The position numbers and the translations under genes were made by a program. 20,789 bases of DNA from a virus, in the IMG/VR virus record IMGVR_UViG_3300022707_002235, positions 1 to 20,789 of that record. One strand, given 5' to 3'. The notes below the pieces were generated by a model, which saw only the letters and a list, made by a program, of their open reading frames with translations, was not told the origin of the DNA and did no database searches. This document shows, piece after piece, positions 954 through 8,511 of this stretch (positions are counted from its first letter, which is position 1; each line of letters opens with the position of its first letter).

Positions 954-1182
954 CCCAAGCCTTTTTGATCTTGCGCATTCTATAAGCCATATACATTCGT
1001 TTTGTATTAATTTTATAAATATCTCCTAGCATAATGAGAGTTAACATAGACGGCACAATTAACCCTCGCTCCCAGTTGCTGACAAATTGTGGCGTAGTAT
1101 ATCCAAAAATATTTGAGATATCTCTCTGGCTATACCCTGATTTCGCACGGCCGGCCTTTAATTGTTTGCTAATTAATTCCAC
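940..1182 (-). CDS. XRE/Cro-CI type helix-turn-helix regulator
   Basis: An 80-residue single-domain HTH protein. Residues 5-60 fit the XRE (lambda Cro/CI) fold: 'LKAGRAKSGYSQRDISNIFG' gives helices 1-2, then 'TPQFVSNWERGLIVP' is the recognition helix with the typical S-N-W-E-R-G-x-x-x-P ending, then 'LTLIMLGDIYKI' is helix 4-5. It ends in a basic tail (R-M-R-K-I-K-K). There is no C-terminal peptidase/dimerisation domain, so it is Cro-sized, not a full CI. The GTG at 1182 has AAGGGAG 5-6 nt upstream and overlaps the previous gene by 10 nt. It is the best candidate in this window for a lytic/lysogenic regulator, although it is embedded in the operon and not divergently transcribed. Confidence 0.85.
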   Translation of the reverse strand: MELISKQLKAGRAKSGYSQRDISNIFGYTTPQFVSNWERGLIVPSMLTLIMLGDIYKINTKRMYMAYRMRKIKKAWDVTL

Positions 1183-1499
1183 TGTATCTCCCTTAGAGAG
1201 GTTATGAGTTTTTGCTCGTTATCTTCACACATCTCTTGAAAACTACTATCTAAGAAGTCATCAAGAGCCTGGTAAATATATACTGGTTTTGTTTCATGGG
1301 TTTCGACGATCGTCCCGCTCTCAGTCATCAAGAAGAGACTCTCACACTTCTCATAAACCGGCTCGTCGTCTAGCCGATAAATGATTTCACATTCGGCGCG
1401 TTTGATGGGATTGCTTGCGACCACGTTTAGAGTGATCGTTTGAGTAAATGTTCTTCGCTCCATGGTGGGTGTTGTAGACTTCTCATTTATGGTAGTCAA
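1173..1499 (-). CDS. Hypothetical protein, acidic C-terminal half
   Basis: Up to 108 residues, family not recognised. The N-terminal part is beta-like ('TFTQTITLNVVASNP', residues 17-31; 'AECEIIYRLDDEPVYEKCESLFLMTE', 35-60) and the C-terminal part is acidic and helical ('ALDDFLDSSFQEMCEDNEQKLITSL'). The start is uncertain: the longest version begins with TTG at 1499, 8 nt after the HNH stop, but no Shine-Dalgarno is visible. The next candidate, ATG at 1463 (residue 13), has none either. Translation could depend on coupling to the HNH gene just upstream. The 3' end overlaps the XRE gene by 10 nt. No function is proposed. Confidence 0.6.
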   Translation of the reverse strand: MTTINEKSTTPTMERRTFTQTITLNVVASNPIKRAECEIIYRLDDEPVYEKCESLFLMTESGTIVETHETKPVYIYQALDDFLDSSFQEMCEDNEQKLITSLREIQWN

Positions 1500-1507
1500 A
1501 TTGTTTT

Positions 1508-2012: not shown

Positions 2013-2577
2013 TGGCCTGCCTTTTTTTAAAGTCGACAGTGGGATAGTTCATTTTATCTAGAAATTCTATGGCCTCTTTTTCGGTCGGCAAAGAAATGGG
2101 CCCTCCTAGCTCCTCAGCGGCCATCAGAGCGTCGAACATCTTTCTCCATGCGCCTATACTCATTTCTGGCTTTAAGTCGCCTGAGCGGTTCCACAGGTCG
2201 TACCAGCCCCCAAGCTGCTGAACCACAACCCAACCAAGGCGCCCAACGTGCTGATCTATCCATTTATGCGCAGCGTCTTCATAGCTCTGTGCCCTTTTTG
2301 AATAATACGAGACGCACTGAAAGAGAGTTTGAGCCATATACTGCGCTTGGTCTTCGATACTGACCCTTCTGTCCATTAGGGCCTTAAGGTCACATGGCAT
2401 AGGAGCTCGTCGATTTTCGTCGCGGTATTTTACCCAAGACCCGTTGAGCTCATCGTTTGAATAGTTCAAAACATCTCTGGCGTAGGCCAAGGCATTTGCC
2501 GGCTGTAACGCTACTTGATGGTATTGGTAAACACCAGACCACCATTTAGCTAATGCCTTTTGTTTGTGTGTTGTCAT
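1996..2577 (-). CDS. Replication-region protein, possible helicase loader-type, unrecognised
   Basis: 193 residues from the ATG at 2577, which has GGAGG 6-7 nt upstream. The frame is open to 2709, but that extension lies inside the initiator gene. It overlaps the initiator's 3' end by 32 nt. The protein is largely helical and tryptophan-rich ('LAKWWSGVYQYHQ', 'WVKYRDENRRAPMPCDLKALM', 'GRLGWVVVQQLGGWYDLW'). The middle segment 'R-R-A-P-M-P-C-D-L-K-A-L' resembles the short 'P-x-x-x-D-L' pattern found in phage proteins that follow an O-like initiator, such as helicase loaders or helicase modulators. Position supports that role (lambda P follows O), but there is no Walker A motif, so it is not a DnaC-type ATPase. 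I would call it hypothetical with a replication association. Confidence 0.7.
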   Translation of the reverse strand: MTTHKQKALAKWWSGVYQYHQVALQPANALAYARDVLNYSNDELNGSWVKYRDENRRAPMPCDLKALMDRRVSIEDQAQYMAQTLFQCVSYYSKRAQSYEDAAHKWIDQHVGRLGWVVVQQLGGWYDLWNRSGDLKPEMSIGAWRKMFDALMAAEELGGPISLPTEKEAIEFLDKMNYPTVDFKKRQANDHEN

Positions 2578-3550
2578 CAGTAACCTCCATTGCGTCAATC
2601 GCTTCCCAAGTTTGTTTATTAGCTTCAAAAGTCTGCTCCGAGAAAGTCTTAGGCCCGGACCTGTTGCCGTCATATCGCCCTTCGATTGCTCGAATTCTTT
2701 TATCTTCACTCAGCCAGTCATCAAAGCCCGGCTTCCATTGCTCAATGCAAAATTTAGAACAAGTAAATTTATTAATCGCGTCAATCCAGTGTGGTTTGTC
2801 AGGATATTTTTTTATCTGAGCTCTGCAAACCTTGATTCTTTTTTCGGAGAGATTTTTACATTTAGGCAAAGTTGAACAATTATCATTCCAAAGATTTCTG
2901 AGGTCGGCCGGATCTAAATCCGGGGTCTCGTCTCGTCCCGTACGTACGTCTCGTACGTCCCGCCCCGTCCCGTACGTAGTGCACGTTTGCGTACGCGTAC
3001 GTTCGTGTGCGTTCGTTTGCGTTCGTTTGCGTTCGTACTCGATAGTATGTCTTTTGCCGTGGCAAGCGGCACAGAGCCACACGACATCAAGAGGCTTGTC
3101 ATAATCTTCATGATGACCGTCAATTCGAACGTTTTCAGCACCACACTCAGAACATGACGCAGGCTTTTTGAGGGTCCCGTTTATCACAGCAGTTTTAACC
3201 ATGTTTCGGGCCTCAACCTTTTTGAAGCAACTTAGACCGCCTGTGTCATCAACGAGTTGAGCCATCTCCATTTCTTGAGTAATCAGCTTTTCAATAACAG
3301 ATCTTAAAGTCTTTTCTTTGATTCGGTTTCTCTCCGCGTGCACAGTATTTAGGCACACCGACCCACCCTTATTTTCTCTAGATGCCATCGCTAAAATGTA
3401 AATAAAGGCCAATAATTCATCAGAATTAAACTCAACAAAGTCTGAGCCGTCGAATATTTCATGTTCTAAACGAAACCAACTTGGTTTTTTAACGTCATTT
3501 CTTGGGTTGTATTTATCCCAGTTGTTTATCTTCAAAGAAATTCTAGACAA
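2546..3550 (-). CDS. Phage replication initiator (lambda O-like organisation) with zinc/HNH-like insert
   Basis: 334 residues. The N-terminal domain (about 1-120: 'LKINNWDKYNPRNDVKKPSWFRLEHEIF', 'LLAFIYILAMASRENKGG') looks like the winged-helix DNA-binding domain of phage replisome organisers. Residues 133-168 form a zinc/HNH-like module: C133-x2-C136, H146-H147, D-K-P-L, C160-x2-C163, H168. Residues 172-208 are a low-complexity R/T/G/D linker encoded by short DNA repeats. The C-terminal domain (about 211-320: 'LRNLWNDN', 'WIDAINKFTCSKFC', 'WKPGFDDWL', 'IRAIEGRYD') matches the usual end of O/DnaD-like phage replication proteins. The start is TTG at 3550, chosen because AGAGGGG lies a few nt upstream and M-S-R-I-S-L-K follows naturally. 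It probably binds its own internal repeats and recruits helicase. Confidence 0.8.
   Translation of the reverse strand: MSRISLKINNWDKYNPRNDVKKPSWFRLEHEIFDGSDFVEFNSDELLAFIYILAMASRENKGGSVCLNTVHAERNRIKEKTLRSVIEKLITQEMEMAQLVDDTGGLSCFKKVEARNMVKTAVINGTLKKPASCSECGAENVRIDGHHEDYDKPLDVVWLCAACHGKRHTIEYERKRTQTNAHERTRTQTCTTYGTGRDVRDVRTGRDETPDLDPADLRNLWNDNCSTLPKCKNLSEKRIKVCRAQIKKYPDKPHWIDAINKFTCSKFCIEQWKPGFDDWLSEDKRIRAIEGRYDGNRSGPKTFSEQTFEANKQTWEAIDAMEVTDDNTQTKGIS
2935..3040. repeat. Iteron-like decamers and CGTACG cluster inside the initiator gene; putative origin
   Basis: On the plus strand six 10-bp units lie in exact register: gcacgtttgc (2981), gtacgcgtac (2991), gttcgtgtgc (3001), gttcgtttgc (3011), gttcgtttgc (3021), gttcgtactc (3031). 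The two central copies are identical. Next to them (2939-2978) the palindromic core CGTACG occurs several times among runs of gtcccg. A T-rich stretch follows at about 2838-2885. Lambdoid phages carry iterons plus an AT-rich unwinding region inside the O gene. A 10-bp period puts the sites on one face of the helix. That this is the origin is inference. The repeats could instead merely encode a flexible linker. Confidence 0.55.
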
Positions 3551-3553
3551 GGG

Positions 3554-3586
3554 CCCCCCTCTTGTTAATGTTGACTCTCAGAGGGG
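3554..3586 (-). promoter_or_regulatory. Hairpin sequestering the Shine-Dalgarno of the initiator gene
   Basis: In the minus-strand mRNA the sequence CCCCTCT (3586-3580) can pair perfectly with AGAGGGG (3562-3556), leaving a loop of about 17 nt. AGAGGGG is the ribosome binding site of the TTG-initiated replication gene at 3550. If the stem forms, initiator translation would be weak until something opens it. The seven base pairs, five of them G-C, are read directly from sequence; the regulatory meaning is inferred. Confidence 0.55.
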
Positions 3587-3598
3587 ATTTGTTAAGAT
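3571..3598 (+). promoter_or_regulatory. Sigma70-type promoter for antisense RNA
   Basis: TTGACT (-35, 5 of 6 matches, 3571-3576), a 16-nt spacer and TAAGAT (-10, 4 of 6 matches, 3593-3598) on the plus strand, facing away from the replication gene. The expected transcription start is near 3605. This is the only reasonable plus-strand promoter paired with a terminator that I found. Confidence 0.5.
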
Positions 3599-3628
3599 CC
3601 GGCTCTGGGATAGTTGCACTGTCCGATC

Positions 3629-3657
3629 GTTCTAAGCTCCAACTTGTACGATATCAA
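3629..3657 (-). promoter_or_regulatory. Possible promoter for the replication genes
   Basis: Minus strand TTGATA (3657-3652; 5 of 6 matches to the -35 consensus), a 17-nt spacer and TAGAAC (3634-3629; 4 of 6). Transcription would start near 3622 and read the initiator gene, overlapping the first few nt of the antisense RNA. The -10 box is weak, and the region may instead be read through from upstream. Confidence 0.3.
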
Positions 3658-3686
3658 GGCCCGCTGCATAGCGGGTTTTGTTTTTT
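3656..3686 (+). terminator. Intrinsic terminator, plus strand
   Basis: Perfect 6-bp stem CCCGCT (3660-3665) / AGCGGG (3670-3675) with a 4-nt GCAT loop, extendable by flanking A-T and G-T pairs. It is followed on the plus strand by TTTTGTTTTTT (3676-3686). On the minus strand the hairpin is followed by CCTTGAT, not a U run, so it should act in the plus direction only. Confidence 0.8.
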
Positions 3687-3690
3687 AAGG

Positions 3691-4167
3691 TTACACATCC
3701 CCCAATACTGCTTTGGCTCTTTCATATATTGCAGAGGCATTTTCAATGGTCATGTCTATTTGAGTTTTCGTTCTTGTCGGGCCACTTAAATTAAACGCTT
3801 TGTGTACTTCGATAAAATCCCTCAAAACATCCTCAGCGGTCTCTTTCTCAATGGGCTGGATGTTGATCAAGAGCGCCTTGTGATTTTGATGGTGGTTATC
3901 TGCAGTGCTCCACATATAGCCCAGATATGTTTTGTCGTACTTAGAAAAAACCTCGACACCCTCAGCCAGCATCTTATTGATAGGCTCGACGTTTTCTTCG
4001 AACCATTTGGCTAAGCTGTCTACACTGAACTGTGGTGGAAATGTTCCATTTATTAATTTCCACCAAGTAGGCTTTTCAATTTGTAACTTCATTCTATTCA
4101 TTTTTAATGCCTTTCCATATCCAGGTTCGGGCTTTGCAAATGGAGCTTGTGATGGGTCAAATAACAT
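3691..4167 (-). CDS. Hypothetical protein between the RecT-like gene and the initiator
   Basis: 158 residues from the ATG at 4167 (GGAGG 7 nt upstream); a GTG one codon earlier is also possible. The start overlaps the TGA of the RecT-like gene (TGATG). The family is not recognised. It begins with a proline-rich segment (D-P-S-Q-A-P-F-A-K-P-E-P-G-Y-G-K), then 'KPTWWKLINGTFPPQF', an acidic helical middle and 'LRDFIEVHKAFNLSG' plus 'IYERAKAVLGDV' at the end. There are no cysteines, no membrane segment and no visible catalytic motif. It belongs to the recombination/replication gene block. In lambdoid phages this slot often holds accessory recombination or regulatory genes, but I assign no function. 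Confidence 0.7.
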   Translation of the reverse strand: MLFDPSQAPFAKPEPGYGKALKMNRMKLQIEKPTWWKLINGTFPPQFSVDSLAKWFEENVEPINKMLAEGVEVFSKYDKTYLGYMWSTADNHHQNHKALLINIQPIEKETAEDVLRDFIEVHKAFNLSGPTRTKTQIDMTIENASAIYERAKAVLGDV

Positions 4168-4868
4168 CACACATCCTCCAAGTTCACAGTATTCTCACCA
4201 TTTAAACGCTGAGTCAGATCTTGAGTTTTCTCACTCTCACTTCTTGAATCTAAGACTTCTCTAGATGGGTCTACGCCGTGGTCATATTCAGCGATCGCCA
4301 TGCCATTGAGACAGTCAGCAAAGAGTGATTTCAAAACTCGACCTCTGGCTCTGTATCTAAGCATGTCGTAGTGATAACTCTGCCATGTTGGGTTTTTTAA
4401 CAGATTAGCCTTCTTAGCATCATCCATTGAGAAGGTAACGCTAGTGACGCCACCGGTGTTTCTCTCGGCCTCACAGTAAGCTTTAAACGCCTTCTGATTG
4501 TCATCGGTCTTCTTACCATCCTTGTCTAAAAAATACTCGGTAAGCCTCACCAGCTTGCCTGACTGCCAACATAATGCAGCTGGTAGATCACCAAAGATTG
4601 TCGGCGTGCCCTTGATAACTGCGATTTGCCTTAGAGCTGTGATTGGTTTAAGACCGAGCTCTATTGCCGTCTGTCGAGCGACTAGAATGTCGGCAGGCTT
4701 ACCCTGAAACCTCTGAGGTATCATATTAGACGTTGCTAGCATTGAGCAGTATCTCATCTCTTCAGTTAAATTTGCAGGGATGATCTGACCATGGTCGGCG
4801 GCGATCTCTATTTGTTTCTTAGCGGTTGTTTCTATGACTTCTTTTTCTTCTTTTGACTCTTCGCTCAT
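4167..4868 (-). CDS. RecT-like single-strand annealing protein
   Basis: 233 residues from the ATG at 4868 (GGAG 6 nt upstream); an in-frame extension to 4925 lies inside the exonuclease gene. After a lysine/glutamate-rich start, the core reads 'IPANLTEEMRYCSMLATSNMIPQRFQGKPADILVARQTAIELGL' and 'ALRQIAVIKGTPTIFGDLPAALCWQSG' (about residues 29-105). This pattern (sampling of positions, then I-x-V-I-x-G-x-P) is found in phage proteins annotated as RecT-type recombinases. 'YDMLRYRARGRVLKSLFADCLNGMAIAEYDHG' near residue 185 fits the C-terminal core. RecT proteins pair complementary single strands after 5'-3' resection. The adjacent RecE-like nuclease strongly supports this call. The sequence is not close to the classical E. 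coli RecT, so the family is probable, not certain. Confidence 0.7.
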   Translation of the reverse strand: MSEESKEEKEVIETTAKKQIEIAADHGQIIPANLTEEMRYCSMLATSNMIPQRFQGKPADILVARQTAIELGLKPITALRQIAVIKGTPTIFGDLPAALCWQSGKLVRLTEYFLDKDGKKTDDNQKAFKAYCEAERNTGGVTSVTFSMDDAKKANLLKNPTWQSYHYDMLRYRARGRVLKSLFADCLNGMAIAEYDHGVDPSREVLDSRSESEKTQDLTQRLNGENTVNLEDV

Positions 4869-4869
4869 T

Positions 4870-5670
4870 TTAATCTCCGTATATGTACATCGTTTCAATG
4901 TTATTCGAATAACCCGGCCACTCATTTTTATCTAGGCAGGTTTTATATAGGTGTAAACCTTTCAGGCATTCTGCCCACCCATCCTCTATCATTTCTTCAG
5001 AAGCCCTATAAAGCATTGACTCGTAGGGTGCTGACTTCTCAAGAGCCCCAAAGATGAACTCATCGAACTCAACCTCAGGCATGGCGGCATTAAATACTTG
5101 TAGATACCAGGCGCACTGTAGATTCCACCTATATCGCTCAATACACCGCCTAAATGGGTGATAACGAGCGTCTTCGGTGGTCTTCCAATCAACGATGGTG
5201 CCCTTGAGTTTATCGTCTGTTTTGTTGATGATCATGAGATCTGCTCGAGCCTTGCACTTAACCCCGTTTATCTCTGCAATAGCTGTGATCTCTTTGGAAC
5301 CTAAATGGAGTAGGTTGTTAATGATGGGCTTAAGGCAGACTTTTTTAGACAGCTTTAAGTAGCCATCATATTTCTCTTCTACTAGACAATCTCTGCCGTT
5401 TGCCACTCGCAAATGCTCTTTAAACGCCTCTTTGCCAACTGTCGTTCGCCTATCGCATTTTGGCATTCTATAATATAGGTCTGCTATTTTCTCTGGTTCA
5501 CTCAAAGCAAAGTGAATGAAGTTGCCGTCTTTGAGTGCCTCAGTCTCTTTGCGCTCAGTCTCTTTGAAGTGCAATGGACTTTGTAACACCTTGCAAATGT
5601 CAGACCGGCTGATCGCCTCATAGTTTTGATAATCATCGTTTGGAATATTCTTATGAATACCTAATTCCAA
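4870..5670 (-). CDS. RecE-like exonuclease VIII (PD-(D/E)XK nuclease)
   Basis: 266 residues. Expected to be a 5'-3' double-strand exonuclease giving 3' overhangs for the annealing protein encoded next. Motifs run in order: 'ISRSDICKVLQSPLHFK' (20-36), 'GNFIHFAL' with H53, 'CKARADL' with D144, 'DWKTT' with D161 and K163 (the D-x-K pair), and Q185-x3-Y189 ('QCAWYLQ'). This is the lambda-exo/RecE arrangement, PD-(D/E)XK plus QxxxY. The start is TTG at 5670: AAAGGAGG lies 6 nt upstream, a very strong site, and no ATG fits. Its stop is 1 nt from the RecT-like ATG. It is the first gene after the tail block, about 60 nt from the fibre gene, so the early genes begin here. Confidence 0.85.
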   Translation of the reverse strand: MELGIHKNIPNDDYQNYEAISRSDICKVLQSPLHFKETERKETEALKDGNFIHFALSEPEKIADLYYRMPKCDRRTTVGKEAFKEHLRVANGRDCLVEEKYDGYLKLSKKVCLKPIINNLLHLGSKEITAIAEINGVKCKARADLMIINKTDDKLKGTIVDWKTTEDARYHPFRRCIERYRWNLQCAWYLQVFNAAMPEVEFDEFIFGALEKSAPYESMLYRASEEMIEDGWAECLKGLHLYKTCLDKNEWPGYSNNIETMYIYGD

Positions 5671-5730
5671 GCTCCACCTCCTTTAGATAGAGCACAACTA
5701 CTAGATATATTTACAGTCGTCTAGAATATT

Positions 5731-6264: not shown

Positions 6265-8511
6265 CTATAAAAATTGATACGGGATTCCACTATCAGCGAA
6301 ATTCCCAGTAGACCAAAATCCATAAACTAGTTTAATAAACTCTGGCTGGTTATCGTAAATGTCTAACTCTAGCACCTGACCGGCCGCTGGTGTAAAGCCC
6401 AAACCAGACCCAAGGGTTAGAGTGTTACCTGATACTTGGTCTAGTGTGGCGTTACCATCGATAGAATAAGTAGAATTGTGAACCCGAATAGAAGCGCCCA
6501 CCAAAGTCTCCCATTTCTTGAACTCGTTTGCTCCAAAGATAGAGCTAAAAGACTGTTTGATAACGACTGAGGTTGCTGAGGCGGCTGACTTGACGAATGA
6601 TGATGGTGAGATTGTGGCAAAGCGTGAATCCTTGTCAAAATTAGTATCGGTCAATCTAAATGATACCTCACCTGTTTTGAAATCTAGAGACTTATTGTCT
6701 ATCTGAAACAACCTAGCCTCACCGTTTCTTGTACCACCCTCTTTGATGTCAGATAGCTTAAGGCTGGCGAAATCTAGTAAGACAATATCGCCCACTTCTA
6801 GTCTGAAACCATCTCTGAAATGCACCTTCACATTCTCAACAAACTCAGCACCAAACTTATACTTTCTCAAGCGTCTCTGTGTTGCAGCTGTGGCGAGTGT
6901 TTCACCTGTTAAGGCGGTCCGTAAGCCCTTTGAGGTAATGTTTAAGGACTTAACCCCCCTATTGATACGCGCAAGAGATGTGGCGCTTGTCGTAGAGATA
7001 ACTCTAGAGAAGGTGTTTTCTAACTCACGCTCATCGAATATGTAGGTAACTGTGTTGTGAAAGTTAATATCTGAGGATCTTCGAACTCTTAATTGAGAGG
7101 GATTTGTAACGTTTGTTGAATCAAGTGTCACAATATTAGTCCCGGGCAAAGGTCCTGTATGTAATCCGAGAGAGAATTGTGACTTACGCGGTAGTCCAAA
7201 CGCACCGGCAGGGTTGTAGATCTGCTCTTCGATGAACTTCTTACCCTCTATAGAGTCTTTCAAATAGAACTCATAGTTAAATGAGCTCAAGAATAACCTT
7301 AAAATAGACTCATGTTCTGCTATGTCGACCTGATCTGGATCTAAAGATAGCCCCTCCCCAAGGGTATCGTACTGACTTCTGAATGATGCTGTGGCTGGAG
7401 AGTCGAACTCTTGTACTAAAGAGGCGCCTCCAACAACGAGATAAGATCCAGCATCTGTCTTGACGATCAATTCAACCGTTCTAGTGATGCCAGAGACGTT
7501 GTTAGCGCCATTTGATGCACCAGTAGTTGTAACGAAATCACCGGTGGTTAAGTTGAAATCACGCTGCAGATCTATGTCATCAAAGAATATTGCATTCGGG
7601 ACTTGAGTAATGGTGTCGATGTTAACGAATGACTCGACTTCAATGTCTTCTGCATAGTTATCATTCTTACCACTTAAGAGAATCTTGAGTGCAAGGGTCA
7701 TGGCATTACCAGTAAGAGAGATAAAACTCTCTACACTAGCTCCATCATCATGAGAAGCAGCAATAGTCCCAAGAGCACCACGAGTGATTGTACTAAAAGT
7801 GGTGGAGGTTTTAGCTTCATAACGCATTATCTCATCATCGATGCGAACAAAGAACTTAATTGAGGTGTCTACTGTACCATCAGGACCCGTCACCGGTGCA
7901 AAGAACTGTGTAGCATCGTCAACAGTGACGCTTGTCACAGATGAATTAATCGCGCCATCTAACTCAGACTCAGCTTTTTGAAATACCTGCGAACGAGCCT
8001 TGATAGAAGGTGCTGCGATGTTAAGTGTAATCAACCCAGGACCGGCTAGAATATCGTCAATAATCCCTCTAAAAATGACGATAAAATCATCCTTCCAAGC
8101 GGTGTTTCTAAACCCTAACCAGATCTTAGCCTTTCGTCCCAGTATATCAAACGTAGGCGAGACCGTATCATCTGGTGTGATTAACTCTGTCGCCTCTAGA
8201 TCTTTATCAATAAGAGCGATCTTCATACTCGAAATAGTCTGAGAGAGACCTCTGTCTGGATTAATACCTTGGGTGATCTTTGAACTGGATTCGTCAAACG
8301 AAACTAACTGCGACTGACCTAGGACGGCGTTCAACCCACCTATAACAAAATCATTGCCAATCTCTAAACCAGGATCACCAATCTTGATTCGTTTCTCGAT
8401 GATCCTTGCGCCAAATAAAGTATCGACACCTTCGATGTCTAAGATAATAGTAGGTTCGATTTGTGAACGACTGGCAGCAGCAGCGGCCGTAGATGTTATT
8501 TCAAAACTCAT
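6265..8511 (-). CDS. Large tail tip/baseplate hub-like protein
   Basis: 748 residues, second largest product of the window by a clear margin over the rest. The N-terminal region ('IEPTIILDIEGVDTLFG', 'KRIKIGDPGLEIG', 'GLSQTISSMKIALIDKD') and 'FIVIFRGIIDDI...GLITLNIAAPSIKARSQVF' (about 143-178) resemble phage tail-hub proteins that enclose the tail tube end. Residues 183-261 hold a recurrent virion module: 'LDGAINSSVTSVTVDDATQFF', 'FFVRIDDEIMRYE', 'STITRGALGTIAASH'. The middle ('HESILRLFLSSFNYEFYLKDSIEG') and late part ('FRDGFRLEVGDIVLLDFASLKLSDIKEG') also suit tail-associated structural proteins. It ends with a beta-rich tail. The ATG overlaps the peptidase stop (ATGA). Tail tip assignment rests on size, gene order after the tape measure and these motifs. 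Confidence 0.7.
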   Translation of the reverse strand: MSFEITSTAAAAASRSQIEPTIILDIEGVDTLFGARIIEKRIKIGDPGLEIGNDFVIGGLNAVLGQSQLVSFDESSSKITQGINPDRGLSQTISSMKIALIDKDLEATELITPDDTVSPTFDILGRKAKIWLGFRNTAWKDDFIVIFRGIIDDILAGPGLITLNIAAPSIKARSQVFQKAESELDGAINSSVTSVTVDDATQFFAPVTGPDGTVDTSIKFFVRIDDEIMRYEAKTSTTFSTITRGALGTIAASHDDGASVESFISLTGNAMTLALKILLSGKNDNYAEDIEVESFVNIDTITQVPNAIFFDDIDLQRDFNLTTGDFVTTTGASNGANNVSGITRTVELIVKTDAGSYLVVGGASLVQEFDSPATASFRSQYDTLGEGLSLDPDQVDIAEHESILRLFLSSFNYEFYLKDSIEGKKFIEEQIYNPAGAFGLPRKSQFSLGLHTGPLPGTNIVTLDSTNVTNPSQLRVRRSSDINFHNTVTYIFDERELENTFSRVISTTSATSLARINRGVKSLNITSKGLRTALTGETLATAATQRRLRKYKFGAEFVENVKVHFRDGFRLEVGDIVLLDFASLKLSDIKEGGTRNGEARLFQIDNKSLDFKTGEVSFRLTDTNFDKDSRFATISPSSFVKSAASATSVVIKQSFSSIFGANEFKKWETLVGASIRVHNSTYSIDGNATLDQVSGNTLTLGSGLGFTPAAGQVLELDIYDNQPEFIKLVYGFWSTGNFADSGIPYQFL

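Follow-up and report, generated by a model that had tools for sequence, protein, structure and literature searches.

CopA and the RNAI of pT181 are plasmid countertranscripts made at the leaders of rep genes. The phage RNA OOP is as a rule assigned to the lambdoid phages. OOP sends the cII mRNA to degradation, and the RNase III-dependent cut falls 12 nt downstream of cII (PMC5869508). Activity of the pO promoter lowers transcription from pR, and loss of pO impairs the replication of lambda (PMC3985674). In a 2025 review of phage RNAs, OOP figures as an antisense RNA to cII, with a promoter that matters for replication. In a bacterial chromosome, ArrA is antisense to the dnaA leader, and lowers the level of dnaA mRNA (PMC12112137).

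Here we analyze a contig from IMG/VR, 20,789 bases long, which we refer to as the window. Its sequence indicates that this bacterial virus carries a conserved small RNA (sRNA) gene, whose predicted transcription starts just ahead of the gene for its replication initiator and runs backwards.

The replication region of the window

Nearly all the coding capacity of the window lies on the minus strand, as an earlier note on this DNA had described (6213 amino acids compared with 226 on the plus strand in a greedy set of open reading frames). The order along that strand is exo, a RecT-like annealing protein, g159, the sRNA unit, the initiator with an internal HNH, and then smaller genes that include an HNH endonuclease and g108 (Table 1). 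The initiator protein matches the profiles of replication initiation family phrog_19658 (3.8e-9), a DnaD-like loader (1e-6), the O-like phrog_345 (9.3e-6) and an endonuclease (3.2e-18). The OOP-like position proposed in the earlier note is thus borne out, with an opposite-strand RNA gene beside a gene matching initiator families (phrog_19658 and phrog_345). The earlier note also had the RNA covering no cII-like gene, and a profile search with g159 indeed gives no cII match.

The HNH endonuclease domain of the initiator occupies residues about 110-173, between an N-terminal PSWF part and a C-terminal DnaD-like part. It looks inserted, because the homologous initiator of a third relative (L079, discussed below) lacks it. 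The tandem repeats within the gene precede the C-terminal part. Tandem repeats are also found within the initiator genes of L079 (16041-16118) and of the sister phage L005 (13421-13466), and the arrays in all three genes are candidate iterons of an internal origin.

Three gene starts in this region have features of their own. The AGAGGGG of the initiator pairs with CCCCUCU just upstream (3556-3590, minus strand) in a predicted self-closing hairpin of 8 bp, which is not found in this form in L005. The exo start (5660-5700, minus strand), with its TTG codon, is locked in a predicted hairpin of 9 bp, and on this folding model is probably translationally regulated. Just ahead of its ATG (1463-1500, minus strand) g108 has a promoter-like AATTTGACTA..ATAAA that is kept in L005 (14918-14955), with no clear ribosome site in the window or in L005; to judge from the sequence, its mRNA is possibly leaderless in both phages.

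Table 1. Positions in the window of the predicted sRNA unit and of the genes and repeats discussed in the text.
Feature	Position	Strand	Details
sRNA promoter	3571..3598	+	TTGACT (3571-3576), spacer of 16, TAAGAT (3593-3598); TG ahead of the -10
Predicted sRNA, ~82 nt, three hairpins	about 3605-3686	+	Fold score, strand asymmetry, homologous unit in L005
Central hairpin	3626..3652	+	Loop region UUCUAAGCUCCA at 3630-3641; predicted fold; loop identical in the window and L005, stem arms different
Intrinsic terminator	3655..3686	+	11-pair stem, loop of 4, six U; terminator scans; 10/11 pairs kept in L005
Replication initiator gene	2546..3550	-	TTG start 3550, behind AGAGGGG; leader covered by the predicted sRNA
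Tandem repeats, period 10 and 13, within initiator gene	2934..3043		Candidate origin iterons, as in lambda O
g159 gene, 159 aa, upstream of initiator	3691..4170	-	Stop codon ~5 nt past the sRNA end
exo, exonuclease VIII-like (DUF3799)	4870..5670	-	TTG start 5670; start region complementary to the sRNA loop, candidate second target, predicted inaccessible
g108	1173..1463	-	ATG 1463; candidate second target common to L005

Promoter, terminator and fold

The promoter has a score of 9/12. Shuffled DNA contains such sites no less often (24 in the window compared with 33 expected), so the promoter by itself is no evidence for the unit. Unlike the promoter alone, the terminator is far above chance. 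It comprises CAAGGCCCGCTGCATAGCGGGTTTTG followed by TTTTTT, with the stem at 3655-3680. In a stricter scan, no other hairpin with a U-tract reaches -12 kcal/mol on either of the two strands of the window; shuffled windows contain 0.017 each. A terminator of -15.5 or better with a promoter upstream occurred in none of 60 shuffles. Applied to lambda as a control, the same simple scan recovers pO and tO with scores equal to those of the window.

The plus-strand unit of promoter, ~82 nt and hairpin with U-tract reported in the earlier note is therefore present, and the window has no other strong terminator. The terminator had been described as a 6-bp GC-rich hairpin. This fits the GC-rich core of 5-6 bp but not the full stem, whose 11 pairs include G-U and A-U pairs.

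The plus-strand RNA (3605-3687) has a predicted folding energy of -30 kcal/mol, with z = -4.03 relative to its own shuffles. The complementary minus-strand sequence is much less structured, with z = -1.9 compared with -3.9 for the RNA strand when both strands were scored together.

A homologous unit in a sister phage

Using the tail gene at 6265-8511 as bait we found about 20 phage contigs. The nearest relative is L005, whose tail protein is 77% identical to that of the window, and it carries an sRNA unit on the strand opposite to the initiator. The promoter is TTGACA-17-TAGATT at 13049-13021, and the terminator CAAGGCCCGCCGCAAAGCGGGTTTTG-TTTTTT lies at 12950-12925, giving a predicted RNA of about 96 nt compared with 82 nt in the window. 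The contexts of the -35 box (GTTAATGTTGACTCTC in the window and ATAAATGTTGACACTC in L005) match in 13 of 16 bases. The 3' 65 nt of the two sRNAs align without a gap, with 50 positions identical (77%). The loop UUCUAAGCUCCA is identical at 12 of 12 positions and the terminator nearly entirely so, unlike the stem arms and the 5' half, which vary. For comparison, the fourfold-degenerate sites of five shared genes are 29-41% identical between the two phages, and the far higher identity of the 3' 65 nt indicates that the sRNA is under selection. Alternatively, the unit may have passed between the two phages by later transfer. This would leave unexplained the retention of loop and terminator alongside variation in the stem arms and the 5' half.

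In L005, too, the folded strand is the RNA strand, with z = -3.6 compared with -0.2 for the complement. The central stems of the window and L005 differ by a slip of one register, which makes the evidence from covariation weak, and consensus folding of the two sequences returns the terminator alone.

The flanking genes are different in the two phages. In L005 an Erf-like annealing protein is encoded upstream, and downstream lies a gene for an initiator that matches phrog_270 and phrog_9474; BLASTP of these neighbors against g159, RecT and the window initiator gives no significant similarity. The distance from the -35 box to the initiator start codon is 21 nt in the window and 19 nt in L005, and the 3' end of the sRNA falls ~5 nt before the g159 stop codon in the former and at the Erf stop codon in the latter. 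With the same geometry, dissimilar flanking proteins and an initiator-like gene downstream in both cases, we conclude that the position at the initiator leader was kept while the genes changed. The earlier note had proposed a search of related phages for a conserved promoter, hairpin and U-tract, and in L005 all three are kept where the flanking genes are replaced, a more stringent case than the one proposed.

Searches for further homologues

The contig of a third relative, G021 (L079, L086), has an initiator homologous to that of the window, and 130-150 nt upstream of it, on the opposite strand, there is a strong terminator behind three hairpins. The candidate RNA of L079 (15589-15690, minus strand) has z = -5.6, and lies between an exonuclease gene and the divergently transcribed initiator. 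It scores weakly with covariance model R2 (E = 2.7 across all loci, 0.05 alone), and no promoter at L079 passes the scan. The G021 RNA is therefore at best an analogue, a structured RNA that occupies the equivalent place but is unrelated. L085, another initiator relative and a closer one, lacks such an sRNA unit. The clear homologues of the unit known so far are two, those of the window and L005.

Searching with DNA patterns and blastn, we find L005 only in IMG/VR, no match in 50,697 phages, and in plasmids a terminator-like stretch only. Protein scans of IMG/VR and GTDB with the initiator, RecT and g159 give no close relative. Rfam 15 has no credible match in the sRNA, and OOP in lambda is likewise unmatched. 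Two-mismatch matches to the loop in the relatives are at background level, and none of the papers searched reports this RNA. A match to the covariance model in Asticcacaulis (L004, E = 0.009) was rejected as chance; it lacks a promoter and coincides with the start of a gene.

Comparison with known RNAs

The locus shares with lambda OOP an opposite-strand promoter beside the initiator start, an RNA of about 77-80 nt in lambda that is transcribed away from the initiator, an intrinsic terminator where the upstream gene ends and an initiator with internal repeats. It differs in that the upstream gene of the window is neither cII-like nor overlapped, and in L005 is Erf. The promoter of the window and L005 is some 20-50 nt away from the start codon, whereas that of lambda overlaps it, and their RNA has the invariant loop. 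Covariance model R2 gives no match in the lambda locus (L084), and there is no sequence similarity between the sRNA and OOP. In the absence of both cII overlap and sequence homology, the sRNA is not a member of the OOP family.

ArrA of Bacillus subtilis (PMC12112137) is like the RNA of the window and L005 in being antisense to an initiator leader and having a housekeeping-type promoter. It is chromosomal, however, is 267 nt long, has DnaA sites in its promoter and bears no sequence relation to the phage RNA. ArrA has been shown to lower the mRNA of its initiator; the phage RNA is a prediction from sequence. The plasmid countertranscripts of rep leaders, such as RNAII of pMV158, are likewise small structured RNAs opposite an initiator leader, with a loop that has a possible kissing role. 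They inhibit translation of Rep or attenuate transcription of rep, whereas here the ribosome site is uncovered and attenuation is inconsistently predicted. We regard the sRNA as a new RNA family of known geometry, OOP-like or ArrA-like by position, and would by analogy work as these do.

Possible action at the initiator leader

The promoter, terminator, fold, strand and conservation, and the position in two phages with different neighbors, can be read from the sequence. From these we infer transcription, pairing and an effect on replication, and propose as the likeliest reading, though with confidence a little short of even, a countertranscript that restrains the replication operon, both initiator and origin activity. 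The host-type promoter ~20 nt before the initiator start would fire away from the initiator, and the ~82-nt RNA would stop at the intrinsic terminator next to the upstream gene's stop codon, covering the intergenic leader. Pairing of the sRNA with the operon mRNA in the leader could then lead to cleavage of the mRNA or to shutdown between the upstream gene and the initiator. Convergent transcription could also reduce readthrough into the initiator and origin, as for pO-OOP in lambda and ArrA at dnaA.

The earlier note had the RNA covering the leader of the initiator mRNA. It does span intergenic sequence ahead of the ribosome site of the initiator, but it runs away from the initiator and leaves the site itself uncovered. 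In the window a hairpin of its own is predicted to close that site whether or not the sRNA region is blocked, while in L005 blocking the stretch covered by the sRNA is predicted to leave the site more closed. With the site uncovered, and that of the window closed in either state, direct block of initiator translation is unlikely, and a combination of mRNA processing or shutdown with convergent interference fits better.

Could the act of transcription suffice, the convergent promoter regulating transcription through the origin and initiator with the RNA as a by-product? The geometry equals that of lambda pO (PMC3985674), candidate iteron arrays lie within all three initiator genes, and the -35 box is ~20 nt from both initiator starts. 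We nevertheless think it unlikely, given that the RNA loop and terminator sequences are conserved and that the fold lies in the RNA strand and not its complement. The strong terminator at a gene border might suggest a terminator or insulator against antisense transcription only, or a hairpin working in the minus-strand mRNA. Yet a promoter lies ahead of it in both phages at equal distance from the initiator, the loop ahead of the terminator does not vary and the minus-strand transcript is not unusually folded, so we consider this very improbable. The claim of the earlier note that the unit has no open reading frame holds insofar as the differences between the two phages have no coding pattern, but a plus-strand frame (3562-3789) does run through the sRNA, beginning ahead of the promoter and stopping past the terminator. 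One frame is open to a stop common to both phages, which speaks for a short peptide gene. However, the frame crosses the terminator, 0 of the 9 changed codons in it are synonymous, and the differences show no codon-position bias in any frame. Since they fall evenly over codon positions the sRNA looks non-coding, and a peptide gene is hardly credible.

The countertranscript reading does not by itself account for the loop, since a cis antisense RNA stays complementary whatever its sequence; the invariant loop hints at a partner elsewhere. The RNA might act in trans, with UUCUAAGCUCCA as a seed that pairs with other mRNAs, of phage or host, at their start regions and the locus setting timing only. 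Identity at all 12 loop positions where the stem arms have diverged would fit this, as would the start of exo (UGGAGCUUGGAA spanning the TTG codon), which can pair over 12 nt with 11 Watson-Crick pairs and one G-U. At -23.0 kcal/mol exo is the best of 30 gene starts in the window, a value reached by 0 of 400 shuffled loops. The g108 start ranks second in both phages, and a shared gene in the top two arises with 8 of 400 shuffled loops. (RNAcofold is unable to represent complexes of loop and target, and its ranking was left aside.) Against this, the exo start lies in its own 9-bp hairpin, so that including opening costs the net energy is about -1 kcal/mol. On the same basis g108 comes first in the window, a result equalled by 23 of 100 shuffled loops, and 20th in L005. 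The phage region of L005 has no exo, and the targets were chosen after looking. Action in trans is in our view less likely than the countertranscript reading. Somewhat less likely again is a combined form, in which an RNA gene kept while its neighbors swap would have two actions, one in cis at the replication operon and one in trans, by way of its loop, at the starts of recombination and early genes.

Biological significance

The presence of an RNA unrelated to OOP in the same place in other phages, with the initiator and recombination genes replaced around it, suggests that phage replication modules recurrently include a countertranscript at the initiator leader. On the old question of whether the RNA or its transcription is the agent, the invariant loop found here points to the RNA. 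If action in both cis and trans were true, it would tie replication to recombination.
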